DNA from: Pelistega sp.
GTDB lineage: Bacteria; Pseudomonadota; Gammaproteobacteria; Burkholderiales; Burkholderiaceae_B
NCBI GenBank assembly: GCA_030538255.1
Contig: JAUNUI010000008.1
Coordinates: 22,833 to 86,832 of the forward strand
Length of the DNA: 64,000 nucleotides
Direction: 5' to 3'
This document shows, piece by piece, positions 13,139 to 45,467 of this stretch. Position numbers and translations under genes: made by a program. Positions within the stretch are counted from its first letter, which is position 1. The number at the start of each line of letters is the position of its first letter. A model generated the notes under the pieces. It ran no database searches. It was not told the DNA's origin and was given only the letters and a program-made list of their open reading frames with translations.

Positions 13139-13255
13139 TAAGCGTACTGCGAAAGCACATCACTTGCCATAAGGCCAAAGATAAGTGAACTGGTATGAGC
13201 AAGCTTTGTGCTTCTAAACAGTTAATAAATCCATACCACTGTACAAGCCCCAAAG

Positions 13256-13280
13256 AAAAAGGCTGCCGAAGCAGCCTTTT
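13256..13280 (-). terminator. Terminator of ssrA (may also act on the plus strand)
   Basis: On the minus strand AAAAGGCTGC, a TTCG tetraloop and GCAGCCTTTTT form a very stable hairpin with T-tract, directly after the tmRNA coding piece. The hairpin is nearly symmetric and could also stop rightward transcription from the OmpA-domain lipoprotein gene that ends at 13138. Confidence 0.88.
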
Positions 13281-13322
13281 AATCCGTTCTGTTGCCAAGT
13301 GGATCATGCTCCTAGCGGCCTG

Positions 13323-13358
13323 TTATTAGGCGGCTAATGCGTAACTTTCGTCATTTGC
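13323..13358 (-). other. tmRNA proteolysis tag reading frame
   Basis: Ten codons starting at GCA (13358-13356) encode ANDESYALAA, followed by tandem TAA TAA stops (13328-13323). The C-terminal ALAA is the usual degron read by ClpXP-type proteases, and the ANDE start matches other betaproteobacterial tags. The same frame is open a few codons upstream, but the resume codon is set by family comparison. Confidence 0.88.
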
Positions 13359-13442
13359 ATTTATAGAATTTGCTTGATTTACGGTCATCGCCTACCGGCT
13401 GCCAATCTTCCTATTTGCCCCTGTCGAAACCAATACGTCCCC

Positions 13443-13480
13443 ATCAATAAAGCACTACTTAGATAAATCCAATGCCCTAT
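13443..13480 (-). other. Intervening segment removed from pre-tmRNA
   Basis: 38 bases between the encoded CCA end of the acceptor piece and the first G of the coding piece. In two-piece tmRNAs this segment is excised by tRNA-type processing (RNase P at the 5' end of the coding piece, 3' trimming at CCA); here that is inferred from the family. Confidence 0.8.
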
Positions 13481-13635
13481 TGGTGGAGACGGCGGGAGTT
13501 GAACCCGCGTCCAGAAACCTGTCAGTTGACCAGGTATACAGCTTAAAGGTTATTTTAGCATAAATTTCAGGATTAAGACTAATTGCAAGCTTGCTATGTT
13601 GTGCAAAACAGGCAAATCAGCGGCATAAAGGTTAC

Positions 13636-33362: not shown

Positions 33363-35054
33363 TCACGACTCCGTCACAATGGGCACCACCTTAGGTTTAG
33401 GTTGGAAACGATAGATTTCATTGAGTTGATGTAGCATACTTTGTTCCGTACCTGAGGGGCTAAATGAGTCCGCCTTAGCAAGCGGCCAAGCCACTTCGTA
33501 TAAACGGAAACGATAGTTCCCCTTCAATAAATCCCCTTCCTCTAATGCAGGATAAATCGCCGAAAGTAACTTTACGTCCGTTGCAGAAACACGCCGTACG
33601 ATATGGTGAGCGCGTAAAGAGCAAGGATGCTTTAAACCAGCCGCTTCAAGGATTTCAGATAAGGCATGAAGTGTATTACGATGAAAATTATAAACACGTT
33701 GTGATTTATCACCAACATCCAAGCCTTGAACACGCGCTGGATCCTGAGTTGCCACCCCTGTTGGGCACTTACCTGTATGACAGACCTGCGCTTGAATACA
33801 ACCAACCGCAAACATAAAACCACGTGCGCTATTACACCAATCGGCCCCTAATGCCATGGTACGCGCAATGTCAAAAGCCGAGATAATCTTACCTGCCGCA
33901 CCAATCTTAATGTGCTGACGTATGCCAATACCGACCAAGGTATTATGAACGATACGTAAGCCTTCACGTAAGGGTGTGCCCACATGGTCAGAGAACTCCA
34001 CAGGGGCTGCACCTGTTCCCCCTTCAGCACCATCAACCACGATAAAATCAGGATAAATTTGCGTCTCAAGCATGGCCTTAGCAATCGCAAAGAACTCCCA
34101 AGCATGGCCAATACATAGTTTAAAGCCTACAGGCTTGCCGCCTGATAAATTACGTAGGTGCTGGATAAAATGCAATAAGCCAATCGGTGAGTCAAATTCA
34201 GGGTGTGCTGATGGTGAGATACAATCTTCACCAATAGGGACGCCACGTGCAAGTGAAATTTCAGCGGTCACTTTAGCGCCTGGCAGAATACCGCCCTGAC
34301 CTGGCTTAGCACCCTGCGACAACTTAAGTTCAATCATCTTCACGTTCGGATGCGCAGACTTCTCAGCAAATACTTTATCATTAAAGCGTCCATTCAGATC
34401 ACGACAGCCAAAGTACCCGGAGCCGATATTCCAAATAAGGTCACCACCCCCATCAAGGTGATAACGGCTGATACCACCCTCGCCCGTATCATGCGCAAAA
34501 CCACCTAATTTGGCGCCAATATTTAAGGCCGAAATCGCATTCGATGATAAGGCCCCAAAGCTCATGGCTGACACATTGAAAATTGACATGCTATACGGTT
34601 GCTTGCATTGTGGTCCACCTATCTGAATACGAAAGTCAGTATCCTCTATCTTGCTTGGATGCATTGAATGGTTAATCCACTCATAATTATCCTCATAGAC
34701 CCCTTTGATCGTACCGAAGGGGCGCTTATCAATCTGCTGCTTAGCACGCTGATAGACAATTGAGCGCTGCACCCGTGAGAAAGGTAGATTCTCTGTATCA
34801 TCCTCAATAAAATATTGGCGGATTTCCGGGCGAATTGCTTCAAAGATAAAGCGTAGATTACCGATAACAGGATAATTCCGTCGTACCGAGTGCTTGCTTT
34901 GAATAAGGTCATAAATCCCCACCAAAGTCAGTAAACCGCAAGGGATAGCAAGGAATAGCCATGACAGCTTATAGAAACTTAGAATCAGTCCAATAATAAA
35001 ACCAATGATAAGTAAGGCAAAAACTAAATAGCGTGAGAATAGACGATTCAGCAT
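33363..35054 (-). CDS. FMN-binding glutamate synthase family protein
   Basis: Membrane-anchored relative of the FMN/iron-sulfur core of glutamate synthase (GltB central domain), without the glutamine amidotransferase part. Two N-terminal helices (YLVFALLIIGFIIGLILSFY, LSWLFLAIPCGLLTLVGIYD) are followed by the TIM-barrel: FNVSAMSFGALSSNAISAL, KLSQGAKPGQGGILPGAKVT, FIVVDGAEGGTGAAPVEFSD, and the cysteine cluster VGCIQAQVCHTGKCPTGVAT for a 3Fe-4S-type centre. The frame opens at TTG 35123; ATG 35054 (GGA nine bases upstream) starts right before the first helix and is chosen (563 residues). Physiological substrate unknown. Confidence 0.85.
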   Translation of the reverse strand: MLNRLFSRYLVFALLIIGFIIGLILSFYKLSWLFLAIPCGLLTLVGIYDLIQSKHSVRRNYPVIGNLRFIFEAIRPEIRQYFIEDDTENLPFSRVQRSIVYQRAKQQIDKRPFGTIKGVYEDNYEWINHSMHPSKIEDTDFRIQIGGPQCKQPYSMSIFNVSAMSFGALSSNAISALNIGAKLGGFAHDTGEGGISRYHLDGGGDLIWNIGSGYFGCRDLNGRFNDKVFAEKSAHPNVKMIELKLSQGAKPGQGGILPGAKVTAEISLARGVPIGEDCISPSAHPEFDSPIGLLHFIQHLRNLSGGKPVGFKLCIGHAWEFFAIAKAMLETQIYPDFIVVDGAEGGTGAAPVEFSDHVGTPLREGLRIVHNTLVGIGIRQHIKIGAAGKIISAFDIARTMALGADWCNSARGFMFAVGCIQAQVCHTGKCPTGVATQDPARVQGLDVGDKSQRVYNFHRNTLHALSEILEAAGLKHPCSLRAHHIVRRVSATDVKLLSAIYPALEEGDLLKGNYRFRLYEVAWPLAKADSFSPSGTEQSMLHQLNEIYRFQPKPKVVPIVTES

Positions 35055-35421
35055 GGGGAAAATCCAAGAGAAAATACAGATAATGGCAAAGCATGAATGC
35101 CATATGCCACTGTTAGTTAACAAGCAGCTGACGAAGCCGCGGTGTTGTGAGAAATAGTATCATATGCCACTAATGCCAAGCAATGAGGCGTTACAGCATA
35201 ACGCTTTATGATGACAGCTTGATGGAAATAGAAAAAACCTTACCCTGTTCAGTGGTTTAATAGGAACTGTAGGGGATAGAGACGTTTATGGGATAGAGAC
35301 TCTTATCGGGCAGAAACGGATATAGTTATGCTTACGACCTAGCTTATGACTATATAGTTATGCTTACGACCTAGGCTCTTAAGTATCGAATAAAGCCAAA
35401 TCACGCCAAACCCGCAAACAT
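35055..35421. other. Gene-free stretch with short repeats
   Basis: No ORF of note. Direct repeat tatagttatgcttacgacc occurs at about 35320-35340 and again near 35352-35372; ggatagagac occurs twice near 35275-35300. The region should include the promoter of the glutamate-synthase-like gene on the minus strand. Confidence 0.5.
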
Positions 35422-42292: not shown

Positions 42293-43351
42293 TTAGGCCT
42301 TCTGACGGCGATTAATCACCGCTTGAGCCAAGCGCTCTAACACTTGCTCGGTTGAGTCCCAACCAATACAACCATCCGTAATACTCTGACCGTAAGTCAG
42401 TGCTTGACCTTCAACTTGGTCTTGGCGACCTGCGACTAAGTGCGACTCAATCATCACGCCAAAAATGCGCAGATCACCTGCTTCCATCTGCTGGGCCACA
42501 TCCTCAAGAACGGCGGGTTGATTCTCAGGTTTCTTGCTACTGTTCGCATGGCTTGAGTCAATCATAATACGTGGCAAGATGCCAGCTTTCTCAAGTTCTA
42601 CACTGGTTTGCTCAACGAATTCAGCTTGGTAGTTAGGTGCTTTACCGCCACGTAAAATAATATGGCAGTCTTTATTACCAAGGGTCTTCACAATCGCTGA
42701 GTGGCCACCCTTAGTTACTGATAAGAAATGGTGTGGCTGAGAAGCGGCTTTAATGGCATCAATTGCAATGCGGATATTACCGTCGGTACCGTTCTTAAAG
42801 CCAACTGGACATGATAAACCTGAAGCTAACTCACGGTGTACTTGGCTTTCTGTCGTACGTGCACCAATCGCGCCCCATGAAACGAGGTCAGCAATATATT
42901 GCGGCGTAATCATATCTAAGTATTCACAGCCTGCTGGTAGACCCTTGGCATTAATCGTCAAGAGTAACTCACGTGCCATACGTAGACCCTTATTAATGTT
43001 GTAGCTATTATCAAGGTCTGGGTCATTGATTAAGCCCTTCCAACCTACAGTGGTGCGCGGCTTCTCGAAATACACGCGCATCACCACCTCAAGCTCACCC
43101 GCGTATTTATCACGTAAGACTTTTAATTTGTCAGCATACTCGAGAGCGGCCTTAGTATCATGGATTGAGCAAGGACCCACCACCACCACTAAGCGGTCAT
43201 CTTCACCTTGTAATACCTTATGAATTGCTTGACGTGCATTGTAAACGACATCAGTAACGCCATTCGCTGCTGGGTACTCACGCATCAAATGTGATGGTGG
43301 GCTTAATTCTTTAATTTCATGGATACGAATATCATCAGTATTGTAAGACAC
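42293..43351 (-). CDS. aroG: 3-deoxy-7-phosphoheptulonate (DAHP) synthase
   Basis: Condenses PEP and erythrose-4-phosphate, the committing step of aromatic amino acid synthesis. Class I-alpha signatures: VVVVGPCSIHDTKAALEYA, VMRVYFEKPRTTVGWKG (PEP/metal site), PVGFKNGTDGNIRIA, FLSVTKGGHSAIVKT and DSSHANSSKKPENQ. 352 residues, as AroG/AroF/AroH. Start codon is GTG at 43351 with AAGGAG eight bases upstream. Upstream lies an attenuator with an aromatic-rich leader peptide (separate entries), so transcription should respond to charging of Phe, Tyr and Trp tRNAs. Allosteric specificity (Phe, Tyr or Trp) cannot be told by eye. Confidence 0.95.
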   Translation of the reverse strand: MSYNTDDIRIHEIKELSPPSHLMREYPAANGVTDVVYNARQAIHKVLQGEDDRLVVVVGPCSIHDTKAALEYADKLKVLRDKYAGELEVVMRVYFEKPRTTVGWKGLINDPDLDNSYNINKGLRMARELLLTINAKGLPAGCEYLDMITPQYIADLVSWGAIGARTTESQVHRELASGLSCPVGFKNGTDGNIRIAIDAIKAASQPHHFLSVTKGGHSAIVKTLGNKDCHIILRGGKAPNYQAEFVEQTSVELEKAGILPRIMIDSSHANSSKKPENQPAVLEDVAQQMEAGDLRIFGVMIESHLVAGRQDQVEGQALTYGQSITDGCIGWDSTEQVLERLAQAVINRRQKA

Positions 43352-43470
43352 GCTAGAAACTCCTTGTTGATTTGGCCAATTATAAAACCAGTAAAACGAT
43401 TAATTGCAATAATTCCTTGTTCGCCGTCAATGCAGTCAAGAAAATCAGCGCTATTCTAAGGCGGCCAAAT

Positions 43471-43498
43471 AAAAAAAAACCGCCCTATTCCTAGGCGG
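43471..43498 (-). terminator. Attenuator terminator of aroG, with alternative antiterminator
   Basis: On the minus strand CCGCCTA (43498-43492), loop GGAA, TAGGGCGG (43487-43480) and nine T (43479-43471) form a strong intrinsic terminator about 120 bases before the aroG start. The 5' arm extended by GG (CCGCCTAGG, 43498-43490) can instead pair with CCTAGTGCGG (43556-43547) inside the leader peptide ORF: 9 bp with one bulged T. The two structures are mutually exclusive, the layout of ribosome-mediated attenuation. Confidence 0.88.
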
Positions 43499-43520
43499 CT
43501 CTTTCAGGTTCTTGCTGTTT

Positions 43521-43592
43521 TTAACGACTGCACGATGTCCTTCTCTCCGCACTAGGCTTCGAAAACCAGAAGTAATAAAAGAAGAAAGACAT
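43521..43592 (-). CDS. Aromatic-rich leader peptide controlling aroG
   Basis: A 23-codon ORF starting ATG 43592 and ending TAA 43523-43521. It begins MSFFFYYFWF: eight consecutive aromatic codons (five Phe, two Tyr, one Trp; 43586-43563), followed by SKPSAERRTSCSR. An in-frame ATG at 43607 would add MKNLV in front. Neither start has a clear ribosome-binding site. Coding for all three aromatic amino acids immediately before an antiterminator arm and upstream of DAHP synthase marks it as a control peptide: shortage of any charged aromatic tRNA would stall the ribosome on this run. Too short for ordinary gene finding. Confidence 0.88.
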   Translation of the reverse strand: MSFFFYYFWFSKPSAERRTSCSR

Positions 43593-43676
43593 AACTAAAT
43601 TTTTCATACTGTTAATGCTATCACAGCTTTATGACAGTTTTAATAAAAAATGCTGCTAGTGCACAAAAAAGACACA

Positions 43677-43690
43677 CTTTTCATGAAAAG
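43677..43690. promoter_or_regulatory. 14-bp palindrome upstream of the aroG leader
   Basis: CTTTTCATGAAAAG is a perfect palindrome about 85 bases upstream of the leader ATG. TTGTGC (43666-43661, minus strand) and a TATTAA-like -10 box about 16 bases on form a weak promoter just downstream. It may be an operator; it does not resemble the TyrR box. Confidence 0.4.
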
Positions 43691-43762
43691 CGAGGGTTTT
43701 CATTAGCTTAAGTTCTTTAAAAACGCTCGCTTAGTCAAGCCCACCCTTGCAATGGAGCTTTA

Positions 43763-43874
43763 AACCCTCGCTTAAAACCCTCGTTTAAGACCCTCGCTAA
43801 TGACGGTATCAATATATACAAGTTATAAACACACTATCATTAAGCGAAGCATTAACATTAAGCGAAGCATTAAC
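43763..43874. repeat. Two short tandem repeats between aroG leader and tldD
   Basis: A 13-base unit (aaaccctcgctta and variants) occurs three times at 43763-43800, with a related gcgagggtttt in inverse orientation near 43690-43700. An 18-base unit, attaagcgaagcattaac, is perfectly duplicated at 43839-43856 and 43857-43874, ending 21 bases before the tldD stop. Confidence 0.85.
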
Positions 43875-43895: not shown

Positions 43896-45362
43896 TTAAG
43901 ATGTACCACCCACCGTTAAACCATCAATACGAATGGTCGGCATGCCTACACCAACTGGCACACCTTGGCCTTCTTTACCACATGTACCAACACCTGAGTC
44001 GAGCGCCATATCGTTACCAATCATACCCACCTTATTCATGGAGTCAGGACCGTTACCAATTAAGGTGGCGCCCTTAACAGGATAAGTAATCTTGCCATTC
44101 TCAATCATATAGGCTTCAGAAGCAGAGAAAACAAATTTACCACTGGTAATATCAACTTGGCCACCCGCGAAGTTCGCCGCGTAAATACCCTTCTTGACCG
44201 AAGCAATAATTTCTTGTGGATCCTTATCGCCATTCAGCATAAAGGTATTGGTCATACGTGGCATAGGAAGGTGTGCATACGACTCACGGCGCCCATTCCC
44301 TGTCACCGCAGTCTTCATCAGGCGTGCATTCATGCTGTCTTGCATATAGCCGCGCAAGATACCATCCTCAATCAGCACATTACGTTGTGTCGGATTGCCT
44401 TCATCGTCCATATTCAAGGAGCCGCGTCGATCGGCAATCGTGCCATCATCCACCACGGTCACGCCCTTAGAGGCGACACGCTCACCAATGCGACCTGAGA
44501 AGACGCTTGAACCCTTACGGTTAAAGTCGCCTTCAAGACCATGACCCACGGCTTCGTGCAGTAGAATGCCTGGCCAACCACTACCTAAAACCACAGTCAT
44601 CTCACCCGCTGGAGCAGCTTTCGCCTCAAGATTCACCAAGGCCTCAGAGACCGCTTTATCGACATACGACTGAAGTAAGTCTTCAGTGAAATAGTTCAAA
44701 CCTAAACGGCCGCCACCACCTGAATTACCCACCTCACGGCGTCCCTTAGATTCAGCGATCACGGTGAGTGATAAGCGCACTAATGGACGAATATCAGCTT
44801 GTAAGCGACCGTCACTCCCAGCGACCATCACCACATCATATTCAGAGCCAAGGCCTGCCATCACTTGTACGATGCGCGGATCTTTAGCACGCGCAAGTTG
44901 CTCAACACGCTCTAATAAAGCAATCTTATCAGAGGTGTCTACACTACCCGTAGGGTCAATCGGGGCATAAAGCTTATGTGGTTCAGGTAAGGTCTTGGCA
45001 ATCTTTGCCTTACCTTGCCCTTGTCGCGCAATAGTCTTCACGGCCGCTGCGGCTTTTAACAAGGCCTTAGGTGATAGCTCATCGGAATAAGCAAATGCGG
45101 TCTTGTCGCCTGCCACTGCACGCACGCCCACCCCTTGAGAGATACTAAAACTACCGGTTTTAACAATCCCCTCTTCCAAGCCCCAGCTCTCGCTGCGTGT
45201 ATATTGGAAATATAAATCGGCATAGTCGGCCTTATGGCTAAAAATATCCGCTAAGGCTCGCGCCAAATGGCGGTCCTGTAAACCATGTGGCTCAAGTAAA
45301 AGAGCTTGTGCCACCTCAAGTGGGGTGCTATTTGCCATATTTGCTGTACTACTATTCATCAT
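43896..45362 (-). CDS. tldD: Metalloprotease TldD
   Basis: Subunit of the TldD/TldE zinc protease that processes peptides such as microcin B17 and CcdA. The HExxxH-type motif is LLHEAVGHGLEGD near residue 258 of the reading frame; NSGGGGRLGLNYF, DEGNPTQRNVLIEDG and the C-terminal GVGTCGKEGQGVPVGVG with its conserved Cys are characteristic of TldD (not TldE). The frame opens at TTG 45380; two adjacent ATGs at 45362 and 45359 fit better, and a third at 45338 is possible. No tldE in the window; the two are often unlinked. Confidence 0.94.
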   Translation of the reverse strand: MMNSSTANMANSTPLEVAQALLLEPHGLQDRHLARALADIFSHKADYADLYFQYTRSESWGLEEGIVKTGSFSISQGVGVRAVAGDKTAFAYSDELSPKALLKAAAAVKTIARQGQGKAKIAKTLPEPHKLYAPIDPTGSVDTSDKIALLERVEQLARAKDPRIVQVMAGLGSEYDVVMVAGSDGRLQADIRPLVRLSLTVIAESKGRREVGNSGGGGRLGLNYFTEDLLQSYVDKAVSEALVNLEAKAAPAGEMTVVLGSGWPGILLHEAVGHGLEGDFNRKGSSVFSGRIGERVASKGVTVVDDGTIADRRGSLNMDDEGNPTQRNVLIEDGILRGYMQDSMNARLMKTAVTGNGRRESYAHLPMPRMTNTFMLNGDKDPQEIIASVKKGIYAANFAGGQVDITSGKFVFSASEAYMIENGKITYPVKGATLIGNGPDSMNKVGMIGNDMALDSGVGTCGKEGQGVPVGVGMPTIRIDGLTVGGTS

Positions 45363-45467
45363 CAATCTATACGCTTTCAATCATTAAGAGGTTTACAAGA
45401 ACCTAGGACTGGTTCTTAAATGCCTAAAGCTTCGCACGAAGCAAAAAGAAAGTTCAACCAGAGAAAC

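Follow-up and report, generated by a model that had tools for sequence, protein, structure and literature searches.

A predicted multivalent peptide-leader attenuator upstream of the DAHP synthase gene aroG in Pelistega sp. and other proteobacteria

The window, that is, the whole 64,000-nt stretch of a Pelistega sp. genome that was analysed, carries on its minus strand aroG, encoding a type I DAHP synthase (42293..43351; GTG start at 43351, with AAGGAG at 43365-43360). The upstream neighbour of the aroG leader region, on the same strand, is tldD (43896..45380). Between the two genes, read 5' to 3' along the minus strand, lie a promoter-like pair of hexamers, an ATG at 43607, a second ATG at 43592, the codons of the peptide stretch FFFYYFWF, the arm CCTAGTGCGG, a purine-rich stretch, a TAA stop codon read directly at 43523-43521, the arm CCGCCTAGG, a hairpin and nine T. 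The end of tldD is about 390 nt upstream of the hairpin. The GTG of aroG is 119 nt downstream of the T run, in line with the earlier estimate of some 120 bases.

The short ORF of this region had been placed by a first-pass annotation at 43592-43521, where it encodes 23 aa (MSFFFYYFWFSKPSAERRTSCSR), and both this frame and its aromatic run at 43586-43563 are read directly from the window. The start codon, however, probably lies further upstream. An in-frame ATG at 43607, 15 nt upstream of the one at 43592, yields a peptide of 28 aa beginning with MKNLVMSFFFYYFWF (43521..43607, minus strand; in full MKNLVMSFFFYYFWFSKPSAERRTSCSR), and 43607 is the likelier start because of the promoter position in the comparison of relatives. 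The eight codons F F F Y Y F W F (43563..43586, minus strand) are taken as control codons on the basis of the sequence and of the codon-position composition in relatives. When the 450 nt upstream of aroG were shuffled preserving dinucleotides, an ORF with at least eight aromatic residues in 10 codons appeared in 1 of 2000 shuffles; on this ground, and on that of the conservation in relatives, a chance ORF was rejected.

The segments of a possible switch are also present on the minus strand. Segment 2, CCTAGTGCGG (43547..43556), just downstream of the aromatic run, is the predicted 5' arm of an antiterminator, and segment 3, CCGCCTAGG (43490..43498), is common to the antiterminator and the terminator. 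The predicted intrinsic terminator (43471..43505) comprises the 3:4 hairpin and the nine T at 43479-43471; it is called by a terminator scan at 43505-43473 and recurs in relatives. Both arms and the terminator had been proposed before and were found in place. Segment 1, at the start of the leader ORF (43578..43609), would pair with segment 1' at its end (43530..43548) to form a protector stem 1:2, as judged by the predicted fold, the pairing test and the pair counts.

To characterize conservation, we used 151 genomes of the window's family, drawn from a larger group, of which 146 had an aroG match. These yielded 141 upstream regions, the other five lying outside the matches listed or being broken by a contig end. 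An ATG-initiated ORF with at least five Phe, Tyr or Trp in 10 codons was found in 122 of the 141 regions and in 37 of 40 genera, and at least seven aromatic residues in 10 codons in 110 of 141, compared with 0 of 987 shuffles. A terminator-like hairpin with a T run follows the aromatic run in all 122 leader-bearing loci. Upstream of the aroG orthologues of the family, where the first-pass annotation had proposed to look, both the aromatic short ORFs and the alternative hairpins are kept. Examples of family leaders are MYRASQFFFFYFFAFPKPLVEEGKRCTQ (L145) and MKFASPAFYFYFFGFLKPLAEEGTRSI (L143), and Bordetella genomosp. 2 (L031), within the family, has the same leader peptide as family member G081.

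The leader is absent from all six loci of genus g8 (genomes of 0.7-0.8 Mb), all six of g26, the single locus of g15, five of six in g23, and from L005, a member of the window's own genus. Among the loci tallied as lacking the leader is L165 (genus g26), where a weakened one, with few aromatic codons (FYKYGY), and a hairpin with a T run stand before aroG; this is possibly an attenuator in decay. In L005 and L013, the leader is gone and a promoter-like TGTGGTAGGAT or TATGCTAGGAT directly precedes aroG, so that the attenuator has apparently been lost and the promoter kept. Two further genomes of the window's genus, G023 and G058 (1.6-1.7 Mb), have no match to the window AroG and are possibly aromatic amino acid auxotrophs.

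A probable promoter precedes the leader at 43615..43643 (minus strand). It consists of a -35-like TTAAAA (43643-43638), 17 nt, and a -10-like TAGCAT (43620-43615) preceded by TGTGA, and the ATG at 43607 begins 7 nt past the -10-like element. A simple promoter scan of the window made no call within 43300-43800. In the family, the best -10-like hexamer ends 6-9 nt upstream of the leader ATG in 115 of 122 leaders and, by median, in 35 of 37 genera. A -35-like hexamer (at least 4 of 6 bases) lies 16-18 nt upstream of the -10 in 80 of the 114 leaders with TANNNT, against 9% in shuffled sequences. An AGGA-like four-base core before the leader ATG was counted in 47 of 122 leaders, the listed cores mostly belonging to a TAGGAT -10 itself, and such cases were not tallied apart. 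Given the spacing of the -10 and -35 to the ATG, the transcript should start within a few bases of the leader ATG and be translated without a Shine-Dalgarno site; the leader ORF would then be read from a leaderless or nearly leaderless transcript.

Outside the family, we considered 116 loci: the best 80 of 589 matches, with 23 and then 13 added, eight of the last 13 being second copies. With the second copies excluded, an ATG-initiated ORF with at least five aromatic residues in 10 codons was found in 73 of 108 aroG regions, among which L031 and L033 repeat family loci; since the loci are those nearest to the query, this fraction is no measure of the phylum as a whole. None of the eight second-copy DAHP synthases has such a leader. 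Comparable elements lie ahead of aroG in Burkholderiaceae, Oxalobacteraceae, Xanthomonadales and Rhizobiales. Of the seven Enterobacterales aroG loci fetched, six lack an aromatic leader and L096 has only a five-residue ORF unlike the rest. The set of 73 outside loci used below for pairing, modelling, composition and Trp differs slightly from the 73 just counted: it omits L031 and L033 as repeats of family members and L088 and L096 for ORFs unlike the rest, and it adds L063, L072, L101 and L136, which have four aromatic residues or a GTG start and the same layout. L054 and L089 were retained, although the terminator finder picked a wrong or doubtful hairpin there.

A covariance model built from the family has the window site as its sole confident match in its own genome (E 1.2e-12). 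The second match (L259, E 0.885) is weak and has no DAHP synthase beside it, and it was rejected as a further copy of the element. Over 299 genomes of the phylum, the model gave 38 matches at E 0.001 or better. Thirty of these were fetched, own genome included, and 28 have a DAHP synthase just downstream, 27 of them with an aromatic ATG-initiated ORF; in the remaining one (L267), no such ORF was detected by the script. The two fetched matches lacking a DAHP synthase are L284 and L287. A quick tree was made from 137 AroG proteins. The sampled Xanthomonadales and Rhizobiales, mostly with leader, stand there beside the window's family (support 93) and apart from the other Gammaproteobacteria sampled. 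Leader presence on this tree requires 19 changes, compared with a mean of 34.9 for shuffled labels. This suggests that aroG and its leader moved together between classes, the support being modest, as near-copies inflate the clustering and the search was seeded by the window AroG.

Folded alone, the window sequence is unexceptional (z -1.56, 13 of 200 shuffles being as good), and the evidence is that of the relatives. For each arm, the duplex energy obtained with its own partner was set against that obtained with partners taken from other genera. In the family, stem 1:2 had -16.3 kcal/mol with its own partner versus -12.8 kcal/mol with those of other genera, the own partner being better in 34 of 37 genera (p 1.8e-7). 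For 3:4, the own partner was better in 25 of 37 genera (p 1.2e-3), and for 2:3 in 24 of 37 (p 0.02), a weak result because CTGGYGG and CCGCCAG are nearly invariant. The p values of three control pairings were 0.39, 0.22 and 0.04, the last for segment 1' with segment 3. Outside the family (73 loci in 48 groups, some of them close kin, such as L051 and L131 with identical proteins), where the tests lean towards the motif because the loci were chosen by eye, the own partner was better in 28 groups for 1:2 (p 0.019, weak), 36 for 2:3 (p 2.3e-4) and 45 for 3:4 (p 1.7e-9), with controls at 0.6, 0.36 and 0.4. For both sets together (85 groups), the numbers were 70 (p 3.6e-11), 51 (p 4.6e-4) and 82 (p 2.1e-15), with flat controls (p 0.78 and 0.88); all these p values are guides, as the groups are phylogenetically non-independent.

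Column counts were made on a 46-sequence alignment. The columns of 1:2 are paired in 62.0% of cells, compared with 57.7% when shuffled and 32-47% when slid, and pairs changed on both sides are not raised (11 versus 10.9 shuffled). For 2:3, 85.6% of cells are paired versus 82.8% shuffled, with five pairs changed on both sides, a number reached in 21 of 500 shuffles; the 3:4 columns are paired in all cells (100%). By the duplex comparison, the 1:2, 2:3 and 3:4 pairings vary in concert between lineages. In addition, a GGGAA at the end of the leader ORF can pair with a TTCCC that is common ahead of the terminator (columns 101-106 with 155-159; 71% of cells paired), which would lengthen the antiterminator.

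In order to locate the predicted switch point, we modelled a ribosome by masking the RNA as far as 12 nt beyond the first A-site base, folding the unmasked RNA up to the end of segment 3 and scoring the probability that segment 3 has an upstream partner. In the window, this antiterminator probability is 0.30 at codon 2, 0.85-0.86 from codon 3 to W14 and 0.80 at F15, and past the run it falls to 0.57 at S16, 0.22 at K17 and 0.14 at the stop. The mean over the 122 family leaders is 0.67-0.68 over the eight codons before the last aromatic codon, 0.64 at that codon, 0.44 and 0.23 at the two codons following it, and 0.12 at the stop. The fall is softer outside the family (73 loci; 0.69, 0.58, 0.43, then 0.16 at the stop). 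As controls, E. coli pheL gave 0.84 within its Phe run and 0.74 at the final Phe, then 0.43 at the next codon and 0.10 at the stop, and E. coli trpL gave 0.62 at both Trp codons and the next one, then 0.50, 0.03 and, at the stop, 0.01. Thus, in the model the antiterminator disappears by the second codon after the final aromatic one, and the profiles of pheL and trpL are similar.

The same calculations set limits on the switch. When segment 4 is included, the terminator prevails in all modelled states (0.93 in the window, family class means of 0.94-0.99), and antitermination must therefore be kinetic. Protection by 1:2 is incomplete in the model, since with the ribosome absent and before segment 4 is made the antiterminator still has a mean of 0.50 in the family; the value is 0.56 outside it, 0.12 for pheL and 0.30 for trpL. 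A modelled stall at codons 3-7 of the window, before the run, frees segment 2 likewise (0.85-0.86), so that specificity would rest on the codons rather than on position.

Upstream of a biosynthetic gene we thus find a short ORF rich in end-product codons, an intrinsic terminator between ORF and gene, an antiterminator that excludes it and has its 5' arm just past the control codons, and a protector stem 1:2 involving the leader ORF, the protection being only partial in the model. These are the features of an attenuator, and as its run codes for several end products, it is of the multivalent ilv/thr type. From the comparison of sequences, we consider it very probable that a ribosome-mediated transcription attenuator of the classical type governs aroG. 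This is the mechanism that had been proposed at first reading, and the conserved run, the codon constraint, the co-varying pairings, the switch point and the position before aroG all argue for it. In kind, the element appears to be a multivalent peptide-leader attenuator at a new gene.

With the ORF, the codon constraint, the terminator, the alternative pairings and the promoter spacing in place ahead of aroG, we infer leaderless initiation, stalling and read-through at the leader, as follows. The transcript would begin with the ATG at 43607 or a few bases from it, and translation of the leader peptide would follow immediately. If charged tRNA-Phe or tRNA-Tyr (here also tRNA-Trp) were scarce, the ribosome would stall in the FFFYYFWF run, opening the 1:2 stem and leaving segment 2 (43556-43547) bare; segment 2 would then pair with segment 3 (43498-43490) while segment 4 is still to be transcribed, allowing read-through into aroG. 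With all three charged tRNAs plentiful, the ribosome would reach the stop at 43523-43521 and cover segment 2, so that 3:4 would form and transcription end in the T run. If the leader were not translated, the 1:2 stem would tend to hide segment 2, and termination would be favoured again.

Which amino acids are read is less certain. The first-pass annotation had the switch integrate all three aromatic amino acids, a claim that fits the window and the 40 of 73 outside-family runs carrying all three residues but not most of the family, as Trp occurs in only 17 of its 122 runs. Summed over the family, the runs have 623 codons for Phe, 232 for Tyr and 17 for Trp, and both Phe and Tyr are found in all 122. 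Trp-bearing leaders come from 5 of 37 genera: g1 (3 of 4 leaders), g32 (6 of 6), g34 (6 of 6), g36 (1 of 6) and g11 (1 of 2). These genera include that of the window, in which Trp is present in three of four leaders, at different places. Outside the family, 42 of 73 runs have Trp, and the runs include FYFYFFWYL in Paraburkholderia, SFYFWYYGF in Xanthomonas and YFWYF in Bradyrhizobium. The three-way reading therefore fits the window sequence and many relatives, and the common sensor in the family would be one of Phe and Tyr.

It is quite conceivable, if somewhat short of an even chance, that the attenuator works as proposed but is in effect a Phe/Tyr sensor, to which the lone Trp codon makes no measurable contribution. 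The 105 of 122 family leaders without Trp in the run point in this direction, as does trpE of the same genome, which has a leader-like ORF of its own with W-R-W-W. Against it stand the genera where Trp is held (three of four leaders in the window's genus, all of g32 and g34), the frequency of Trp and of all three residues outside the family, and the modelled antiterminator probability of 0.86 for a stall at W14. In the three-way reading, the lone Trp codon of the window would be strong enough to matter.

The short RNA or peptide could also act in trans, like the attenuator RNA rnTrpL and the peptide peTrpL, which do so in Sinorhizobium meliloti according to PMC10117765. The predicted layout is the same, the RNA being terminated and having a leaderless sORF as its 5' part, and S. 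meliloti trpL is described there as leaderless, like the start predicted here (PMC10117765). Cis control suffices to explain the conservation, however, and we regard action in trans as unlikely.

Still less probable is that the run serves as a U-rich RNA arm whose coding is incidental, another signal, protein or metabolite, setting the switch. The run is indeed pyrimidine-rich and in the predicted fold partly pairs with the purine-rich end of the ORF. But the base use of 96 distinct family runs shows a strong codon periodicity: T makes up 85% and C about 1% (1.3%) of first codon positions, T 61% and A 23% of second positions, and T or C 94% and A or G 6% of third positions. Moreover, the modelled switch point follows the last aromatic codon, and neither a riboswitch nor a T-box family matches the window at Rfam cut-offs. 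By its composition, then, the run is under selection as codons, since base use has a period of three, unlike that of a merely U-rich arm; an arm of this sort with no coding role was rejected on account of the periodicity. That the hairpin is a mere 3' terminator of tldD, which lies upstream on the same strand and ends some 390 nt before it, with the ORF there by chance, is hardly credible, given that 37 of 40 genera retain the ORF, the run and the hairpin, that a promoter-like motif precedes the ATG and that similar elements precede aroG outside the family; on account of this conservation, a plain tldD terminator was rejected.

The proposed aroG attenuator was compared with known systems. No Rfam family matches the aroG leader of the window at cut-off, and a known Rfam leader family was rejected as a candidate on this ground. 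Phe_leader (RF01859) is not found in the window, and its best score in six loci is 27.5 bits (L016), the cut-off being 55. At the cut-offs, Rfam matches in the window are to tmRNA and tRNA families only. Among them is a beta_tmRNA at 13254-13590 on the minus strand (161 bits), which a permuted tmRNA model matches too. Our literature search yielded no description of the aroG element, in agreement with the earlier remark that the arrangement was not known to have been described for aroG in this group; the survey of proteobacterial attenuators by Vitreschak (2004) lay outside this search and may mention it. In a term search, the main text of a broad terminator survey (PMC2965389) did not name aroG, aroF or DAHP.

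The E. coli pheA leader (pheL, RF01859) is alike in its Phe-rich leader peptide, its terminator and its modelled switch profile. It has arms 1 to 4, as does the window element. The latter differs in being at the committing step rather than in the Phe branch, and in its mixed Phe/Tyr/Trp codons. The trp leaders of E. coli and S. meliloti (trpL) use ribosome-mediated attenuation as proposed here, but they precede trpE, not aroG, and have Trp codons only. The ilvGMEDA and thr leaders combine codons of several end products in one peptide, so that multivalency as such has precedents; those codons are branched-chain or Thr/Ile ones, and the genes are unrelated. Like the window element, the uORFC-13-1 motif before aroF of Acholeplasma consists of a short ORF, containing one or more Phe codons, and a terminator ahead of a DAHP synthase gene; its 24 examples are from Acholeplasma and environmental sequences only, and the proposed sensed residue is Phe (according to PMC8632094). 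For E. coli aroF-tyrA, also with a DAHP synthase gene, attenuation was proposed by Camakaris (1980; as cited in PMC8632094 and PMC2659441), but in response to Tyr. The mode is thus a known one, that of pheA and trp, and what appears to be new is the aroG target and the mixed aromatic specificity.

The window AroG matches the NCBIfam AroG equivalog at 598.5 bits (cut-off 568), and its solved relatives include the Phe-regulated E. coli enzyme. It shares with the latter the stretch FLSVTK, which we take to be a mark of Phe-inhibited enzymes. If this mark holds, the enzyme would sense Phe and the attenuator would add Tyr and Trp. In the 2.95 Mb genome, AroG is the only match to its own protein, and the type II DAHP synthase family PF01474 has no match there. 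Neither has PF18024, presumably the TyrR domain, for which the E. coli control was positive. No DNA similarity to plasmids was found.

Elsewhere in this genome, trpE (L292, G000:C9) has, upstream of 33785-35197, a leader-like ORF MATYITSYYAYYWRWWCSSAGFAR with a TTG start as called, in which Tyr codons stand beside the Trp codons and behind which there is a GC-rich hairpin with a T run; this is a probable trp attenuator. For pheA of this genome, the 400 nt searched showed no aromatic leader.

It is DAHP synthase that commits carbon to Phe, Tyr and Trp alike. In E. coli, three isoenzymes and the repressors TyrR and TrpR share in its control, and these two repressors regulate DAHP synthase genes in gammaproteobacteria (according to PMC5343134). 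Taken together, the results allow a joint reading that we consider evenly balanced. According to it, one uncatalogued attenuator family would stand where aromatic synthesis begins, in a large part of the Betaproteobacteria, the Gammaproteobacteria (Xanthomonadales) and the Alphaproteobacteria (Rhizobiales). It would be translated from a leaderless transcript, gauge Phe, Tyr and, in many lineages, Trp in a single peptide, have moved between classes with aroG, and replace control by TyrR and TrpR; in the window's genome, the only DAHP synthase, probably inhibited by Phe, would through it come under the wider control of all three amino acids.

The element provides an alignment and a covariance model for an Rfam-style family, and it offers a ready test of how a single ribosome-read sensor weighs several amino acids. 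In a genome with one DAHP synthase and no PF18024 match, a single short peptide could sense two or three end products at once, and such an element would explain the control of aroG in many proteobacteria.
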